A DNA stretch of 33,700 bases from Blastococcus sp. GTDB lineage: Bacteria > Actinomycetota > Actinomycetes > Mycobacteriales > Geodermatophilaceae. Both the position numbers and the translations under genes were made by a program. A model generated the notes under the pieces. That model searched no databases. It was not told the origin of the DNA and saw only the letters and a list, made by a program, of their open reading frames with translations. The DNA lies in NCBI GenBank assembly GCA_025965695.1, contig JAOPWM010000310.1, positions 1 to 33,700 of the forward strand, read 5' to 3'. The number at the start of each line of letters is the position of its first letter. The first letter of the stretch is position 1. Shown piece after piece: positions 63 through 14,395 of the stretch.

Positions 63-795
63 GTGCGCATCGTCCACGTCGCTCCGACCCTGTTCGGTGC
101 CGGCGGCCTCCTGGGTGGCGGCGAGCGATATCCGGTCGAGTTGGCCCGCGCGCTGGCCCGCCACGTCGACGTGGACCTGGTGACCTTCGGATCCCGCCCC
201 GGCGTCGTCCGCGACCGGTCGGGCGGCTCACCCCGCACAAAGGCATCGACCGGCTGATCCGTGCGCTGCCCGACAGCGCCCGGCTCACCGTGGCGGGACC
301 GGCGGGCACGACTGTCGTCCACCCGAACGGGACTACCCGCTTCTGCTGCGGGAACTCGCTCGCGGGACGGACGTCGTCTTCACGGGGGCGGTGACCGAGG
401 CAGCCTTGCCCGGTCTCCATCGCGGCGCGGCGGTCTTCGTGCTGCCCACCGTCAAGCAGGACTGCTACGGCCGGCACTTCGCGATCTCCGAGCTGCTCGG
501 GCTCAGCGTGCTCGAGGCGATGGCCAGCGGCACACCGGTGGTCGCCAGCTGTCTCGACGCGCTGCCCGAGGTGCTGCGCCACGGGGAGACCGGGTTCCTC
601 GTCACCCCGGGTGACGTCGACGAGCTGCGGGACCATGTCGCGCAGTTGCTGGAGGACCGGGCGCTGGCCGGGCGGATGGGGCGGCGTGGCCGGGAGGTGG
701 TGCTCGAGCAGTTCACCTGGGAGGCCTGCGCGCGGCGCTGCCTGAGGGCCTACGAAGAGCTGCTCTCACCTGGCGCTCACAGCGGCCCGGTGTAA
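63..795 (+). pseudogene. GT4 family glycosyltransferase, internally deleted and frameshifted
   Basis: Three pieces of one GT4 glycosyltransferase lie in three different frames. From the GTG at 63 the sequence reads MRIVHVAPTLFGAGGLLGGG, a typical GT-B N-terminus with a glycine-rich donor loop, and continues to about codon 50 (near 215). At about 218 the reading moves to another frame with VGRLTPHKGIDRLIRALPD, the classic start of the C-terminal nucleotide-sugar domain, so roughly 150 residues between are missing. Near 300 a second shift leads into the last frame. That frame carries GTDVVFTGAV, the SVLEAMASGTPVVAS nucleotide-sugar motif and a normal C-terminus at the TAA at 795. An intact family member is about 400 residues; only about 240 remain. 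The 3' end overlaps the convergent PTPS-like gene by 19 bases. An assembly error could mimic one frameshift but not the large deletion. Confidence 0.85.
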
Positions 796-1151
796 CCCCC
801 GAACGCCACCGGGGACTCCCAGACGCGCACGGCGAGCGTGACGCCGGGCAGTGGGCCGAGCGCGGCCGCGAGCTGCATGTGCACCCAGCGGGCGAAGAGT
901 TCCACGGTGACGGCATCGGTGTCGGCCGGCTGGATCTTCTCCAGGTCGTCGTCGGCGACCTGGGCCGCGGCATCCCGCAGCGCCTGCTCCAGCCGATCGA
1001 GGTCGACGACCATGCCGTGTGCGTCGAGGTCGTCCCGGCGGACGACGACGTCGAGCCGGTAGTCGTGCGAGTGGCGCTCGCCTTCCGGCGGCGGCATGCC
1101 GGGCATGACGTGAAAGGCCCGCACCTGCAGCGCTGTCCCTGTCTCGTACAT
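777..1151 (-). CDS. 6-pyruvoyl-tetrahydropterin synthase / QueD-like protein with altered catalytic residues
   Basis: A 124-residue protein of the T-fold PTPS/QueD family, about the usual length. The three zinc-binding histidines are recognisable: His14 (in RAFHVMP), His27 and His29 (in ERHSHDY, the counterpart of HGHNY). The substrate-anchoring glutamate is Glu112 (VWES). The catalytic cysteine four residues before the first HxH histidine is Glu23, and the DHHYLN catalytic segment is replaced by an acidic stretch, DDDLEK, at 67-72. Glutamate at the cysteine position recalls PTPS-III enzymes, so QueD chemistry should not be assumed. ATG start. The stop of the upstream dehydrogenase is 4 bases away, so the two are co-transcribed. 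The likely substrate is a dihydroneopterin-like or related GTP-derived compound made with the neighbouring cyclohydrolase, which is inference. Confidence 0.85.
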   Translation of the reverse strand: MYETGTALQVRAFHVMPGMPPPEGERHSHDYRLDVVVRRDDLDAHGMVVDLDRLEQALRDAAAQVADDDLEKIQPADTDAVTVELFARWVHMQLAAALGPLPGVTLAVRVWESPVAFGGYTGPL

Positions 1152-1155
1152 GAGG

Positions 1156-2139
1156 CTATGGATAGCGCAGCGCTACGTGCACGACACCTGCGGCTCGGCG
1201 GTCCAGCGCCTCGTAGGCCAGGGGGGCGTCGTCGAAGGCCAACTCGGTGGTGGCGACTGCGGACAACGGCAATTGGCCGAGGAGTGCCGCGGCGACACGG
1301 CGGCGGCGGGTGACGTCCCAGCGGCCGGCGAGCGCGGCCGGGATGGTCGACACCTGGCTGCTGCGGATCGTCAGCCTGCGTCGGTGGAAAGCACCGCCGA
1401 GCGGCAGTGTGACCTCCTGTCGGCCGTACCAGGAGCCCACGAGAGCGGTGCCCTCGTGGGTGAGCAGGGGAAGCGCGCCGGCGAGGGCCGCGGGTGCGCC
1501 GGACAGCTCCACGAGCAGCGGCACGCCACCGGCCGGCACGCGGGACGGCAGCTCCTCCGGCGCAACTGCGGGGATACCCAGTGACAGCGCCAGTTCGCGA
1601 CGCCGGCCGAGCGGATCGGCCGCGAGAACGGTGGAGCCGGCCTGCTGCAGGAGCAACGCCGTGATGAGCCCGACCGCGCCCAGTCCGAGGACGACGACGG
1701 TCTCGTGGGCCACCTGGCCGGCGTCGAGGCTGAGCTGCAGCCCCGTCTCGACGAGCGGGAACAGGGTGGCTGCGCGCGAGTCGATCCCCTCGCCCAGCAC
1801 GACGACGTCCGCCTCGGAGACGACGAACCGGTCCTGGTGCGGGTGGAACGCGAAGACGCGGGTTCCGGCAGGGACCGTGCCGGTGGAGCCTTCGACCTCT
1901 CCGACGCAGCTGTAGCCGTACGGAAACGGGTAGCGGAAGCTGCCGCCGAGCGATCCGATTCGTTCGTCCAGGGGAAGGTCGGGATCCAGCAGGCCCCGGT
2001 AGCAGAGCAGCTCCGTGCCGGTGCTGATGCCCGAGTGCAGGGTCCGGACGAGCAGTTGGCCAGGTCCGGGCTCCGGGACGTCGACGGGCGCCAGCTCGAC
2101 GCGTCTCGGGGCGACGAACAGCAGTCGGCGGGCCTGCAC
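1156..2139 (-). CDS. Zinc-independent MDR-family dehydrogenase (BchC-like)
   Basis: A 327-residue medium-chain dehydrogenase/reductase. The start is a GTG at 2139 preceded by GGGAGG nine bases upstream. The frame stays open far upstream, but that extension lies opposite the cyclohydrolase gene and is not protein-like. The N-terminal half is a GroES-like domain with HSGISTGTE, where zinc MDR enzymes have a cysteine followed by GTD or GTE. The GHE motif is replaced by YGYSCVGEV, and the four-cysteine structural-zinc loop is absent. The Rossmann domain has the dinucleotide motif VLGLGAVGL. The SGISTGTE pattern is like bacteriochlorophyllide dehydrogenase BchC and related sugar or small-molecule dehydrogenases. 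It probably oxidises or reduces an alcohol of the pathway encoded by its neighbours; the substrate cannot be read from the sequence. Confidence 0.8.
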   Translation of the reverse strand: MQARRLLFVAPRRVELAPVDVPEPGPGQLLVRTLHSGISTGTELLCYRGLLDPDLPLDERIGSLGGSFRYPFPYGYSCVGEVEGSTGTVPAGTRVFAFHPHQDRFVVSEADVVVLGEGIDSRAATLFPLVETGLQLSLDAGQVAHETVVVLGLGAVGLITALLLQQAGSTVLAADPLGRRRELALSLGIPAVAPEELPSRVPAGGVPLLVELSGAPAALAGALPLLTHEGTALVGSWYGRQEVTLPLGGAFHRRRLTIRSSQVSTIPAALAGRWDVTRRRRVAAALLGQLPLSAVATTELAFDDAPLAYEALDRRAAGVVHVALRYP

Positions 2140-2191
2140 GCCAGTTCGCCTCCCGGTGCGTTCGACCGCGTGTGATCCGGCGCCGCGACGG

Positions 2192-2197
2192 TAGCGT
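2192..2197 (+). promoter_or_regulatory. Candidate -10 box (TAGCGT) for the cyclohydrolase-reductase gene
   Basis: TAGCGT fits the actinobacterial TANNNT -10 consensus and lies 38 bases before the ATG at 2236. The surrounding ggtagcgtgc also occurs at the candidate promoter near 6170. No convincing -35 box is visible. The 96-base spacer 2140-2235 must also hold the promoter of the divergent dehydrogenase operon. Confidence 0.3.
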
Positions 2198-2235
2198 GCG
2201 GGGCCCGGAGCACGCGCGAGCGAGGAGTCGGGCTG

Positions 2236-3633
2236 ATGGCCGTTACATCGTCGCAGCAGGGCCGGCCATCCGTCCGCGAAGTGGCGTCCGCACCGATTCC
2301 GACACCGTACGGAGAGTTCGACGCACGTGCCTTCCAGACGCCGTCCGGACACGTGCACCTCGCGCTCGTGCTGGGCGCGATCGGCGACGGCGGGTCGGTG
2401 CTGACCCGGCTGCACTCGGAATGCCTGACCGGCGACGCCCTCGGCTCGCTGCGCTGTGACTGTGGCGTCCAGCTGCGGTCGGCGATGCGGACCGTCGCCG
2501 CCGAGGGACGGGGCGTCGTGCTGTACCTCGACGGCCACGAGGGGCGCGGTATCGGCCTGATCGACAAGCTGCGGGCCTATGTCGAGCAGGACGCCGGAGC
2601 CGACACCGTCGACGCCAACCTGCAACTCGGGCTCGATGCCGACCTGCGGAACTACGACGACGCGGCCGCCGTGCTGCGCGCCCTGGGTGTCCAGTCGGTG
2701 CGGCTGCTGTCCAACAACCCCGGGAAGGCCGACGGCCTGCAGCGCAACGGAGTCGCGGTCCAGTCGATGCGCCCGCTGGGCACCGCCGCACATCGGCGCA
2801 ACCGCGCGTACCTCGAGACCAAACAAGCGCGCTTGGGACACCAGCAGCCGGCCGGGAAATCCCTCGAGGAGCTATCCGCCGCGCCCGTCGACGTCGGCCG
2901 CCTGCTCGGCCCGCAGCGGCCGCGGGCCGACCGCCCGAACATCGTGCTCAAGTACGCCCAGACGATCGACGGTCGGATCGCGACCCGCACCGGCGATGCC
3001 AGATGGATCAGCGGCGAGCCGGAACGCCGGGTGGCGCACGCCATGCGCGCAGGCTGCGACGCGGTGCTGGTGGGGGCACGCACGATGCTCCAGGACGATC
3101 CACAGTTGACCGTGCGGATGGTCCCCGGGGCCTCGCCGCTGCGCGTCGTGCTCGACTCGACGCTGCGCACTCCGCTGACGGCGAAGGTGCTGTCCGACGA
3201 CGCGGCGACACTCATCCTGTGCCGGCCCGACGCCGACCCGGCGCGCCGGCGGGCACTCGCGTCGACGGGTGTCATGGTGCGCGAGGTCGCCGGCGGTCCC
3301 GAGGGGCTGCGGATCGAGGAAGTGCTGCGCCTGCTGCGCTCGCTCGGTGTCGCGGCGCTCCTCGTCGAGGGCGGCGGCCGGGTGATCACCTCGATGCTGC
3401 AGGCCGGCGTGGTCGACCGCGTGGTGGTCTCGATGTCGCCCACCATCATCGGTGCAGGGGTGGACGCGGTCGGTCCGCTCGGGATCAGCAGGGTCTCCGA
3501 GGGAATCCGGCTGGCCAACCGAGCCGTGTACCTGGCTGGTGACGACGTTCTGCTCAGCTTCGACGTGGAGAACGGCCCGCGGTCACGAGCCGATAGCTCG
3601 GCCGGCGGCGAGAGTGGCACAGAGAGTCCGTGA
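2236..3633 (+). CDS. GTP cyclohydrolase II fused to RibD-type reductase domain
   Basis: A 465-residue two-domain enzyme. Residues about 20-200 are GTP cyclohydrolase II: RLHSECLTGD with zinc ligands Cys63, Cys74 and Cys76, HEGRGIGL at 101-108, and the active-site tyrosine in KLRAY (Tyr115). Residues about 233-455 are the RibD C-terminal reductase (DHFR-like) domain, with LKYAQTIDGRIA, the DDPQLTVR segment and VEGGGR. Neither a DHBP synthase nor a RibD deaminase domain is present, so this is not a standard bacterial riboflavin protein. It could open GTP and reduce the ribosyl side chain without deamination, the order used by fungi. The residue before GHEGR is Asp99 where most homologues have arginine. 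The ATG start has AGGAG eight bases upstream. It diverges from the dehydrogenase-PTPS pair, supporting a shared pathway. Confidence 0.88.
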   Translation: MAVTSSQQGRPSVREVASAPIPTPYGEFDARAFQTPSGHVHLALVLGAIGDGGSVLTRLHSECLTGDALGSLRCDCGVQLRSAMRTVAAEGRGVVLYLDGHEGRGIGLIDKLRAYVEQDAGADTVDANLQLGLDADLRNYDDAAAVLRALGVQSVRLLSNNPGKADGLQRNGVAVQSMRPLGTAAHRRNRAYLETKQARLGHQQPAGKSLEELSAAPVDVGRLLGPQRPRADRPNIVLKYAQTIDGRIATRTGDARWISGEPERRVAHAMRAGCDAVLVGARTMLQDDPQLTVRMVPGASPLRVVLDSTLRTPLTAKVLSDDAATLILCRPDADPARRRALASTGVMVREVAGGPEGLRIEEVLRLLRSLGVAALLVEGGGRVITSMLQAGVVDRVVVSMSPTIIGAGVDAVGPLGISRVSEGIRLANRAVYLAGDDVLLSFDVENGPRSRADSSAGGESGTESP

Positions 3634-5226: not shown

Positions 5227-6020
5227 CACGCGATGCGCACGTCGGCCTCGGCCAGCGTGTTCCCGTCGACAGCGTCGAGAGCATCGAGCCAGGCGGCCGC
5301 GAACGTCCCCGGTCCGCCGGCCGTCACTGCGGCACGCTCGGCGGCCAACGCCACGTGTGCGTGCGCGGCGACCGCCCCGGCGAGCGGGTCGTCGGTGACG
5401 GCGAGATAGGCAGCGACCAGAGCGCCGAGCGCGCACCCGGCCCCGGTCGTCCGGGTGAGCAGCACCGACCCGCCGCCGACCCGGACGGTCCGCTGTCCGT
5501 CGGTCAGCAGGTCCACCGCGCCACTGACCGCCACCACGCCGCCGGTCCGCCGGGCCAGCTCCACGGCAGCCTTCGCCGCGTCGTCGGCGCCCGCGGTGCT
5601 GTCCACGCCCCGGCCCCCGGCGCCCGCCCCGGCCAGCGCCAACACCTCCGAGGCGTTGCCCCGCACCACGGTGGGTCGCAGCGCGAGGAGTTCCTCGGCC
5701 AGCGCCGTCCGATAGGCCAGAGCGCCGACGGCGACGGGGTCCAGGACCCACGGCGTACCGGCTGCACCGGCCGAGCGCGCCGCCAGCCGCATCGCCTCGG
5801 CGGTGCGCTCGTGCACCGTGCCGACGTTGATGAGCACGGCCGAGGCGACGGCGGCGAAGTCGCCGGCCTCCTGGGGGGCGTCCACCATGGCGGGCGCGGC
5901 CCCGGCGGCCAGCAGGGCGTTGGCGGTGATTGCCTGGACCACCGTGTTGGTCAGGCAGTGCACCAGAGGTGCGGTCTCGCGCAGCGCCTTCCGGGCAGCG
6001 CGCAGGTCGATGGCTTCCAC
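5226..6020 (-). CDS. thiM: Hydroxyethylthiazole kinase
   Basis: A 264-residue ThiM, which phosphorylates 4-methyl-5-hydroxyethylthiazole for thiamine salvage. It shows PLVHCLTNTVVQAITANALLA near the N-terminus, VLDPVAVGA in the middle, RGNASEVLAL, and the TTGAGCALGALV active-site loop containing the ThiM cysteine. The GTG start at 6020 lies ten bases downstream of an AGGGA sequence that is itself the 3' edge of a TPP riboswitch. It is the first gene of the thiM-thiE-thiD operon and is expected to be repressed when thiamine diphosphate is plentiful. Confidence 0.95.
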   Translation of the reverse strand: MEAIDLRAARKALRETAPLVHCLTNTVVQAITANALLAAGAAPAMVDAPQEAGDFAAVASAVLINVGTVHERTAEAMRLAARSAGAAGTPWVLDPVAVGALAYRTALAEELLALRPTVVRGNASEVLALAGAGAGGRGVDSTAGADDAAKAAVELARRTGGVVAVSGAVDLLTDGQRTVRVGGGSVLLTRTTGAGCALGALVAAYLAVTDDPLAGAVAAHAHVALAAERAAVTAGGPGTFAAAWLDALDAVDGNTLAEADVRIA

Positions 6021-6028
6021 GCCGGTGA

Positions 6029-6105
6029 CATCCCTTCGCCAGTGCGAACTGGAGCAGGTTCGACGGGTGTGTTCTCAGTCCCGAGCAGGACACCCCGTGC
6101 CACGT
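6029..6105 (-). promoter_or_regulatory. TPP riboswitch (THI element) of thiMED
   Basis: On the minus strand the leader reads in order ACGGGGTGTCC, GGACTGAGAACAC, GTCGAACCTG and CACTGGCGAAGGGATG. These are the conserved blocks of a thiamine diphosphate riboswitch (the CUGAGA pyrimidine-binding loop and the GAACCUG / GCGAAGGGA diphosphate side). The terminal AGGGA probably doubles as the ribosome binding site of thiM, suggesting control by sequestration; no separate terminator hairpin is seen before the start. Confidence 0.93.
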
Positions 6106-6113
6106 ACGGCCCG

Positions 6114-6176: not shown

Positions 6177-6185
6177 GCCGCCCGT

Positions 6186-6275
6186 ATCACGGGAGCCCAC
6201 CCGAGTGGACTGAGAGGGCGGCTGGGGCCGCCGACCGTTGGAACCTGTCCCGGGTCATGCCGGCGTAGGGAGGAA
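6186..6275 (+). promoter_or_regulatory. TPP riboswitch upstream of a zinc alcohol dehydrogenase
   Basis: On the plus strand the leader contains CACGGGAGCCC, GTGGACTGAGAGGG, a GC-rich variable hairpin (cggctggggccg), TTGGAACCTGTCCCGGGTCA and GCCGGCGTAGGGAGG. These are the conserved parts of a TPP riboswitch in the correct order and spacing. The final GGGAGG (6268-6273) is also the Shine-Dalgarno sequence of the ATG at 6280, six bases away, so ligand binding should block translation directly. It lies head-to-head with the thiMED riboswitch. Confidence 0.93.
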
Positions 6276-6279
6276 ACCG

Positions 6280-7293
6280 ATGCGTGCTGTGCGCTTCCAC
6301 GGCGTGGGCCGGCCGCTGGCCGTCGAGGACGTCGACCGGCCGCGGCCCGGCCCCGGGGACGTGCTGATCGACGTGGCGGCGGCCGGTGTCTGCGGCACCG
6401 AGCTGCACTTCCTGGACGGCCTGCTCACCCCGGCTCGGACACCGATCACCCTCGGCCATGAGGTCGCGGGCGTCGTCGCCGAGGTAGGCGAGGCCGTCGA
6501 GGACGTCGCCGTCGGGGACCGCGTCGACGTCCATTACCTGCACGCCTGCGGCGCCTGCCGGTGGTGTCGTACCGGTGATGACCACCTGTGTGACGCTCCC
6601 CTCGGCTTCCTGGCCTTCGTCAGCGACGGGGGTTTCGCCGAGCAGATCGTCGTGCCCGCGTCCGCGACCGTGGCCGTCCCCGATGGCCTCGACCTCCCGG
6701 CCGCAGCCGTCCTGTGCTGCAGCGGCACCACGGCGCTGCACGCAGTCGACATGGCCGGCGTCGTGGCAGGTGCGACGGCGGTCGTCTACGGCACGGGCGG
6801 GGTGGGCCTGGCACTGGTGCAGGTGCTGAAAGAGGCGGGGGCGCGACCCATCGCGGTTGCCCGGAACCCCGAGCGGCTCGCGCTCGCGCGGGAACTGGGT
6901 GCCGAGACGACGGTGAACGCCGCCACCGAGGACGTCACTGCCGCGATCCGGGAGGCGACAGGCGGCATCGGGGCCGACGTCGTGTTCGAGCTGGTCGGCA
7001 CGAGGAAGACCAGTGCCGCTGCGCTCGCCTCCCTCGGCAAACGCGGCACCCTCGTCTACGTGGGTTACAGCTTCGACCGGGTGGAGATCGACCCGCTGTC
7101 GCTCGTCGTGCCGGAACAGCGCATCGTGACCTCGGTGGGCAACCGCCGTTCCGAGCTGGTCGAGGCGCTGGATCTGGCCGCACGGGGCCGGCTGCACACC
7201 ACCGTCACGACGCATCCGCTGGAGGACGCGGCGCGCGTCCTGCAGGACCTTCGGGCCGGCCGCGTCCTCGGACGTGCGGTGCTCGTCCCGTAG
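6280..7293 (+). CDS. Zinc-dependent MDR alcohol dehydrogenase under TPP riboswitch control
   Basis: A 337-residue zinc MDR oxidoreductase with both metal sites visible. Catalytic zinc ligands are Cys38 (GVCGTELH) and His60-Glu61 (GHE); the structural zinc site is Cys90, Cys93, Cys96 and Cys104 (HACGACRWC...C). The Rossmann motif YGTGGVGLALVQV binds NAD(P). The start is the ATG at 6280, which lies at the correct distance from the GGGAGG of the riboswitch. The longer reading frame begins inside the riboswitch and is not used. Riboswitch control ties it to thiamine metabolism, for example oxidation or reduction of a thiamine precursor alcohol or aldehyde (HMP, hydroxyethylthiazole) or of thiamine itself. 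This role is inference; the fold alone fits many alcohols. Confidence 0.93.
   Translation: MRAVRFHGVGRPLAVEDVDRPRPGPGDVLIDVAAAGVCGTELHFLDGLLTPARTPITLGHEVAGVVAEVGEAVEDVAVGDRVDVHYLHACGACRWCRTGDDHLCDAPLGFLAFVSDGGFAEQIVVPASATVAVPDGLDLPAAAVLCCSGTTALHAVDMAGVVAGATAVVYGTGGVGLALVQVLKEAGARPIAVARNPERLALARELGAETTVNAATEDVTAAIREATGGIGADVVFELVGTRKTSAAALASLGKRGTLVYVGYSFDRVEIDPLSLVVPEQRIVTSVGNRRSELVEALDLAARGRLHTTVTTHPLEDAARVLQDLRAGRVLGRAVLVP

Positions 7294-8878: not shown

Positions 8879-14395
<5,517 letters not shown>

Follow-up and report, generated by a model that had tools for sequence, protein, structure and literature searches.

Does the gene set at positions 63 to 3633 of contig JAOPWM010000310.1 from Blastococcus sp. 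(Geodermatophilaceae; assembly GCA_025965695.1) belong to riboflavin synthesis, whose enzyme families it shares, or does it serve a separate pathway that starts from GTP? The whole stretch analyzed, hereafter the window, is 33,700 nucleotides long and represents contig C22 from base 1 of a draft assembly that is 81.53% complete and comprises 317 contigs. The set consists of a fusion of GTP cyclohydrolase II (GCH II) with a RibD_C reductase, an MDR dehydrogenase, a PTPS-like protein and an interrupted glycosyltransferase (GT) gene. We consider it probable that this locus represents, in the version found in Geodermatophilaceae, a dedicated pathway apart from riboflavin, which occurs in several bacterial phyla and in haloarchaea and would run through the five steps set out below.

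The fusion gene (2236..3633, + strand) is uninterrupted and encodes a protein of 465 aa (P0001), in which PF00925 (GTP_cyclohydro2) was matched at residues 16-178 (E 1.1e-58) and PF01872 (RibD_C) at residues 234-438 (E 7e-47). Since no further Pfam domain was matched at E 0.001, the fusion contains neither a deaminase nor a DHBP synthase, as a preliminary description of this DNA had already read it. The translation contains ECLTGDALGSLRCDCG and VEGGG, which we take to be the zinc motif and the reductase motif, respectively. Alignment to 2bz0 placed Tyr115 (codon 2578..2580, + strand) at Tyr105 of E. coli RibA, presumably the position that switches between the products APy and FAPy, and a Tyr was observed there in 26 of 26 aligned housekeeping GCH II copies. 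With PF00925, the zinc cysteines and the catalytic Tyr present, the first half is a GTP cyclohydrolase II, while the best PDB matches of the reductase half were 6p8c and 2azn. Across a divergent intergenic region of about 96 bases (2140..2235, from the positions of the open reading frames, ORFs) lie a BchC-like MDR gene (1156..~2139, − strand; P0003 from residue 35, with an inferred GTG start), which served as the cluster seed and scored 64.8 bits with the BchC model (cut-off 291), and, after a gap of 4 bases, the gene of a PTPS/QueD-like protein of 124 aa (P0002; 777..1151, − strand; PF01242, E 5.7e-17). This divergent layout, too, is as first described.

Canonical riboflavin genes were found on other contigs of the genome when it was searched for a ribA/ribD set, as had been suggested at the outset. 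PF00925 matches two places, namely the window fusion and a DHBP synthase-GCH II protein on C182, whose gene is followed by a ribH-like ORF (named from its translation). PF01872 matches seven places, the best being on C231, where a RibD with an apparent deaminase part lies between rpe-like and ribE-like ORFs and where the beginning of a ribBA-like ORF is also located, all as read from the translations. No deaminase, DHBP synthase, RibE or RibH was seen beside the window fusion. Because the ribD-, ribE-, ribBA- and ribH-type genes are on C231 and C182, the fusion was rejected as the housekeeping riboflavin copy, and the initial idea of a GTP-derived gene set separate from riboflavin synthesis gains support from these genes and from the co-occurrence of the neighbors.

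This co-occurrence, which the preliminary description had named as a check, was observed in the family sample of 112 Geodermatophilaceae genomes, where the fusion was detected in 11, the window-type PTPS in 11 and a close MDR (at least 71% identity) in 10, with all three together in nine. The exceptions were G355, whose fusion is cut by the contig end (L013, the same contig as L197 and counted once), G389, which has no close MDR, and G392, with a contig of 3.8 kb (L009). In nine family genomes, including G389, the cluster takes a second form, in which RibA-like and RibD_C proteins are encoded separately, and PTPS was found in eight of these nine stretches. The cluster is thus present in about 20 of the 112 family genomes, a patchy yet coherent distribution. 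Ten further loci (L003-L012) contain fusions 75-91% identical to that of the window, with PTPS in nine and MDR in eight of the stretches; in the short stretches L014 and L015, a Tyr-type GCH II is the only cluster gene.

The window MDR was then the seed for a class sample of 296 genomes (E ≤ 1e-30; 46 genomes match) and a phylum sample of 396 genomes (1e-40; 47 genomes match), with self-set presence thresholds, that for GT being 100 bits or more. The class-level counts are based on 47 MDR places, the window included, and on genes within about 9 kb or to the contig end; PTPS was present in 45, GT in 44, a flippase-like frame in 39, GCH II in 38, CDP-alcohol phosphatidyltransferase in 37, methyltransferase in 35, creatininase in 26 and RibD_C in 18. 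At the phylum level, 33 of 35 new places were counted (G148 and G473 were left out), with PTPS and RibD_C in 26, GT in 23 and GCH II in seven, six of the seven being fused to RibD_C; no lipid gene, methyltransferase or creatininase was found at these 33 places. MDR genes without PTPS (L120, L121 and seven of the 33 phylum places) were scored as misses. From 72,556 plasmid records, 28 matched and 23 loci were examined (H9/H24, H32, H37, H39 and H42 were left out; L182-L186, stretches that carry no annotation, were read by our own profiles), and PTPS lay beside MDR in 22, the miss being L174. Their hosts are Streptomyces, Microbacterium, Arthrobacter, Thiodictyon, Methylosinus, Palleronia, another Rhodobacterales strain, Rhizobiaceae and haloarchaea. 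Since 19 kb makes up less than 1% of any genome that measures at least 2.5 Mb, these neighbors are found together beyond chance. The window locus fits the definition of this conserved cluster (adjacent MDR and PTPS, GT4, and a GCH and/or RibD_C module), its GT being present only as an interrupted gene.

What would such a cluster make? The GCH II half would open GTP and, being of the Tyr type, would also deformylate it to 2,5-diamino-6-(5-phosphoribosylamino)pyrimidin-4-one (APy), after which the fused RibD_C half would reduce the ribosyl to a ribityl chain with no prior deamination. The MDR would oxidize a side-chain hydroxyl, most simply that at C2', and the ketone would condense with the 5-amino group to give a dihydropterin phosphate; this would be a route to dihydroneopterin-like compounds that bypasses GCH I, the C2' ketone being the same as that from the GCH I Amadori step. 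Oxidation of a secondary alcohol is suggested because the BchC-like MDR adjoins PTPS. The PTPS-like protein would then complete or rearrange the dihydropterin phosphate, and GT4 enzymes would add sugar, with a lipid-linked exported form possible where a CDP-alcohol phosphatidyltransferase and a flippase-like gene accompany them, as in most class-level and Rhizobiaceae clusters. We infer every one of these reactions, as well as a glycosylated pterin as the product; the first two steps are supported by context, the third and fourth weakly.

The entry step bears on the GCH II of Streptomyces coelicolor, SCO6655, which, in a 2006 finding attributed to Spoonamore, reportedly makes FAPy because Met replaces the Tyr, whereas Tyr is said to give APy. 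As Tyr115 is kept, the window enzyme is predicted, by this rule, to yield the deformylated pyrimidine, and FAPy was rejected as its product on the same grounds. The likeness to SCO6655 that had been pointed out for the window therefore holds for the cluster, SCO6650 being a cluster PTPS, and not for the window enzyme, for which the kept Tyr predicts the ordinary product. Non-Tyr clusters should accordingly need a deformylase, a prediction that led to the search for the creatininase. A creatininase-family gene was present in all 28 loci with non-Tyr GCH II (Met, Leu, His or Gln; 26 class-level loci and the plasmid loci L164 and L185) and in none of the 47 Tyr loci (31 from the main recount, seven plasmid and nine family loci). 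The creatininase of the non-Tyr clusters is predicted to be a FAPy deformylase; it scored 37.6 of 180 bits with the ArfB model, and mycofactocin MftE was rejected as its identity (135.6 of 172 bits, under the cut-off). The reverse search with creatininase (E ≤ 1e-50) revealed a homologue in 32 of the 296 class genomes, 26 of which are the non-Tyr cluster genomes.

A different cyclohydrolase, the unrelated GCH III, stands in for GCH II beside the MDR in four of the eight haloarchaeal loci (L170:8229-9011(+), L174:8213-9001(+), L176:8235-9017(+) and L177:8229-9011(+)), as checked with PF05165 in L170 and by annotation in L174, L176 and L177. These plasmid genes overlap the MDR gene by a few bases and are possibly paralogues of the chromosomal ArfA. 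Both the occurrence of GCH III, whose product is given as FAPy (PMC7288161), and the creatininase-family FAPy formamidase described for Sinorhizobium and Brucella (PMC9478397) favor the link between a missing Tyr and creatininase. Creatininase is annotated in one of the eight haloarchaeal loci, L172, which has no GCH III.

As to the reductase step, the L116/L118/L122 fusions and the window-type fusions do not group together in a tree of their reductase halves (p-AU 6.5e-6 for a single clade, with a long-branch warning), so the GCH II-RibD_C fusion arose at least twice; the L122 fusion stretch has neither MDR nor PTPS. Among the Streptomyces-type f19 genomes, a related RibD_C was found elsewhere for 14 of 14 clusters that have none of their own, for 0 of 4 that do, and in 3 of 12 genomes that have no cluster MDR; in f17, a related reductase was detected for nine of ten clusters, the tenth having a split copy (E at most 1e-60 in both, with relatedness ignored). 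A search of 30 genomes for the L108-type reductase gave strong matches in the four whose cluster contains it, along with a weaker second match in each of these, and no match at 1e-20 in the other 26.

Several observations weigh against this account. On the GCH II tree, Tyr and creatininase need only about two changes each, too few for a test on independent pairs to become significant, and though 19 of the 26 creatininase genes overlap the GCH II frame or lie within 180 bases of it, seven are 3.6-8.3 kb away. Nine of the 31 Tyr loci are stretches of less than 15 kb that could hide a creatininase, and L007, L009 and L122, also among the 31, have no MDR or no PTPS. Moreover, eight stretches (L198-L205) contain a relative of the cluster creatininase (54-62% identity) but neither GCH II nor any further cluster gene. 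One of these is an additional copy in G152, and the rest come from six other genomes, of which one contributes two. The subfamily can therefore occur independently of GCH II, which weakens the Tyr/creatininase rule. For the reductase, the A4-type enzyme was also found in 10 of 20 cluster-free f17 genomes, and for the GCH II halves a single clade uniting both fusion groups is compatible with the data (p-AU 0.49). In L004 and L006, the window-type loci whose flanks extend about 10 kb in both directions, there are no lipid genes and no Streptomyces-type methyltransferase. Finally, at the position of B. subtilis RibG Lys151, which selects the deaminated substrate, the window reductase has Lys, the other cluster reductases having Ser or Gln and 6p8c and 2azn having Asn; this counts against the second step in the form proposed above.

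The stretches of the eight GCH II-free creatininases share another feature, since an NsdA-like TPR regulator frame was found by BLAST in all of them, with a model match for the frames beside creatininase at L202:7583-9630 (+) and L200:8980-10948 (−).

The residues of the PTPS-like protein concern the later steps. P0002 has His14, His27, His29, Asp50, Glu84 and Glu112 and no Cys; in the alignment, Asp50, Glu84 and Glu112 are present in 103 of 103 PTPS rows, and His14 and His27 in 102 each. Going by known PTPS structures, Glu84 and Glu112 are presumably the pterin-binding positions. A catalytic Asp-His pair is the mark of QueD and biopterin PTPS, and neither this pair nor the catalytic Cys is conserved among the cluster PTPS, which appear to retain the presumed pterin-binding residues with the canonical catalytic ones gone. 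P0002 was rejected as QueD or biopterin PTPS, having no Cys and no conserved Asp-His pair and scoring under the curated cut-offs (QueD model 36.1 bits, cut-off 89.25; 6PTHBS 30.3, cut-off 125.5). An EG-HSH-type stretch is common to the window-type and haloarchaeal PTPS, while the Streptomyces type has FGPAQ-LHGA. The published motifs are CxxxHGH or CxxxxxHGH for QueD and biopterin PTPS and FGPAQ for PTPS-IV (PMC5445326); the window protein has PPEGERHSH instead of FGPAQ and was rejected as PTPS-IV, and FGPAQ was found in the Streptomyces-type cluster PTPS.

These residues also bear on the strongest alternative, to which we assign a distinctly smaller but appreciable chance, namely that the product of the MDR, the PTPS-like protein and the GT is a ribityl-diaminopyrimidine, deaminated or not, with a sugar attached, the ring being left open and no pterin made. 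The loss of the canonical catalytic residues from the PTPS-like proteins, P0002 included, and the Lys at the RibG Lys151 position would both suit an open ring, but the two glutamates to which we assign pterin binding are invariant, and an alcohol dehydrogenase beside a PTPS fold suits ring closure at C2'.

For the glycosylation step, comparison with L004 and L013 revealed that the N- and C-terminal parts of a single GT4 gene (the GTa of L006) are located at 63..795 (+ strand), where two glycosyltransferase genes had been described, with about 380 internal bases missing and the reading frame broken. A second GT was found in L004, L005, L006, L013 and L076, and an FkbM methyltransferase in L004 and L006; in the window, their places would fall past the contig edge. 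That the last step is lost here, as had been suggested, finds weak support in one interrupted GT, and since this GT lies at the contig start of a draft assembly, real decay and assembly error are indistinguishable for it. We think it unlikely that the locus of this genome is a decaying remnant that makes nothing. The closest relative, L003, likewise keeps only the end of GTa, and the spread is patchy, with the fusion in 11 of 112 family genomes; however, besides the position of the break, the frames of the fusion (85-91% identical to L003-L005), MDR (84-88%) and PTPS (79-86%) are all open.

Lipid genes raise a more far-reaching version of the dedicated pathway. Among loci with PTPS, the phosphatidyltransferase and the flippase-like gene co-occur in 37 of 45 class clusters and in 4 of 10 fusion-type Geodermatophilaceae stretches (L008, L010, L011 and L012). 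They are also paired in 6 of 11 proteobacterial plasmid loci (L168, L178, L179, L183, L184 and L186), while five of the eight haloarchaeal loci (L170, L172, L173, L176 and L177) have an annotated phosphatidyltransferase. The same six Rhizobiaceae loci contain a cytochrome b match (PF01292, checked in L168 only), and Thiodictyon L165 has cytochrome b with a phosphatidyltransferase; the cytochrome b gene lies beside the RibD_C gene at L168:12999-13532(−) and L165:12503-13060(+), and also in L178, L179, L183, L184 and L186. The cluster might thus make a lipid-anchored glycosylated pterin, a membrane or extracellular redox cofactor common to actinobacteria, proteobacteria and haloarchaea, with the cyclohydrolase, reductase and deformylase modules repeatedly exchanged. 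This is doubtful: neither lipid gene was found in the 26 phylum-level clusters with PTPS, which makes the lipid-anchored form less probable, and no cytochrome b match was obtained in any class or phylum locus. If it is true, the window-type loci would be a soluble, sugar-only branch.

Two further alternatives carry little weight. That the fusion only supplies extra pyrimidine precursor to riboflavin synthesis would accord with the shared enzyme families and with the parallel entry routes, with different entry enzymes for flavin pools, stated for S. meliloti (PMC9478397), but we hold it to be very improbable, given the canonical genes elsewhere, the lack of riboflavin partners beside the fusion and the conserved MDR, PTPS and GT. 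We know of no riboflavin role for these last three. The least probable is that the locus serves one of the known pathways in which a PTPS-family protein or diaminopyrimidines take part (preQ0/queuosine, biopterin, folate or F420), since P0002 scores under the QueD and 6PTHBS cut-offs and no queC, queE, queF or F420-synthesis gene is named in 18 annotated plasmid stretches (in an incomplete gene table), even though the protein belongs to the PTPS/QueD superfamily, names given in databases, for example 6-carboxytetrahydropterin synthase, point that way, and PTPS-IV is stated, as unpublished, to serve archaeal F420 synthesis (PMC5041015), which also counts against a dedicated pathway.

Comparison with known systems places the proposed dedicated pathway further. 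PDB 3d7j, which is SCO6650 of S. coelicolor and is labelled uncharacterized, was matched (2.3e-80) by the PTPS of L083, a Streptomyces-type locus; from the gene order, SCO6649 and SCO6651-6654 would be other cluster genes, and SCO6655 we take to be the FAPy-forming GCH II. The Streptomyces-type cluster differs from the window in its non-Tyr GCH II with creatininase, in a reductase that is unfused and usually elsewhere, and in a PTPS with FGPAQ/HGA as opposed to PEGE-HSH; on a plasmid of S. fungicidicus the row is CDP-alcohol phosphatidyltransferase, MDR, PTPS, GT4, methyltransferase, creatininase and ribA, with a flippase-like frame between. SCO6655, a GCH II, is tabulated with genes that show an anticorrelation between expression and predicted flux, most being up in stationary phase (PMC2853524), and SCO6652 (values 0.8, 4.3 and 4.1) is among uncharacterised genes for which stages of the mycelium show a more than 4-fold difference (PMC3610822). 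The archaeal entry to riboflavin and F420 (ArfA GCH III, ArfB deformylase and ArfC reductase) has the same predicted intermediates, and the window reductase half is nearest to 6p8c and 2azn; however, the window cyclohydrolase is a GCH II, from another family, and should need no deformylase. Toxoflavin-type pathways make a GTP-derived natural product with GCH II, a RibD-like protein and a methyltransferase, and are not known to have a core of PTPS, MDR or GT. BrbF of Sinorhizobium and Brucella, first annotated as creatininase-family, deformylates FAPy (there AFRPP) and serves riboflavin (PMC9478397); a term search of the main text of that paper found neither "Streptomyces" nor "Tyr".

The locus had been called undescribed, and this holds for the pathway, although the association of PTPS-IV with PF00925 and PF01872 was in print in 2017 (PMC5445326). 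There, AGeNNT cluster-node 62 (PTPS-IV, 561 sequences) comprises PTPS homologues beside PF00925 and PF01872, preferentially with FGPAQ, which the window PTPS does not have; PF00925 is called GTP cyclohydrolase I/FolE2, and the sections concerned propose no pathway (PMC5445326). A literature search that missed most subscription papers returned no description of the whole cluster or pathway, of the Tyr/creatininase rule, of repeated fusion or of the exchange seen in haloarchaea.

Downstream of the fusion, from 3746 on, thiamine-type ORFs are oriented towards it, preceded by a thiamine pyrophosphate (TPP) riboswitch at 6014-6107 (− strand). Back to back with it, a second TPP riboswitch match (6179-6289, + strand, 58.4 bits) is located at the start of an alcohol dehydrogenase-like ORF (6238-7293, + strand; named from its translation), an unusual target. 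Further on, an ORF of 1838 aa (8879-14395, − strand) resembles a single-chain biotin carboxylase-carboxyltransferase, as judged by translation only.

Overall, the spread of the cluster suggests that a GTP-derived compound is useful enough to have been retained in more than one domain of life. The Tyr/creatininase rule bears on the reason for a GCH II that keeps the formyl group in Streptomyces, and on the role of the neighboring creatininase. The Geodermatophilaceae fusion offers a single-enzyme handle on the first two steps, and a pathway hypothesis is now supplied for SCO6650, whose solved structure bears no functional label.

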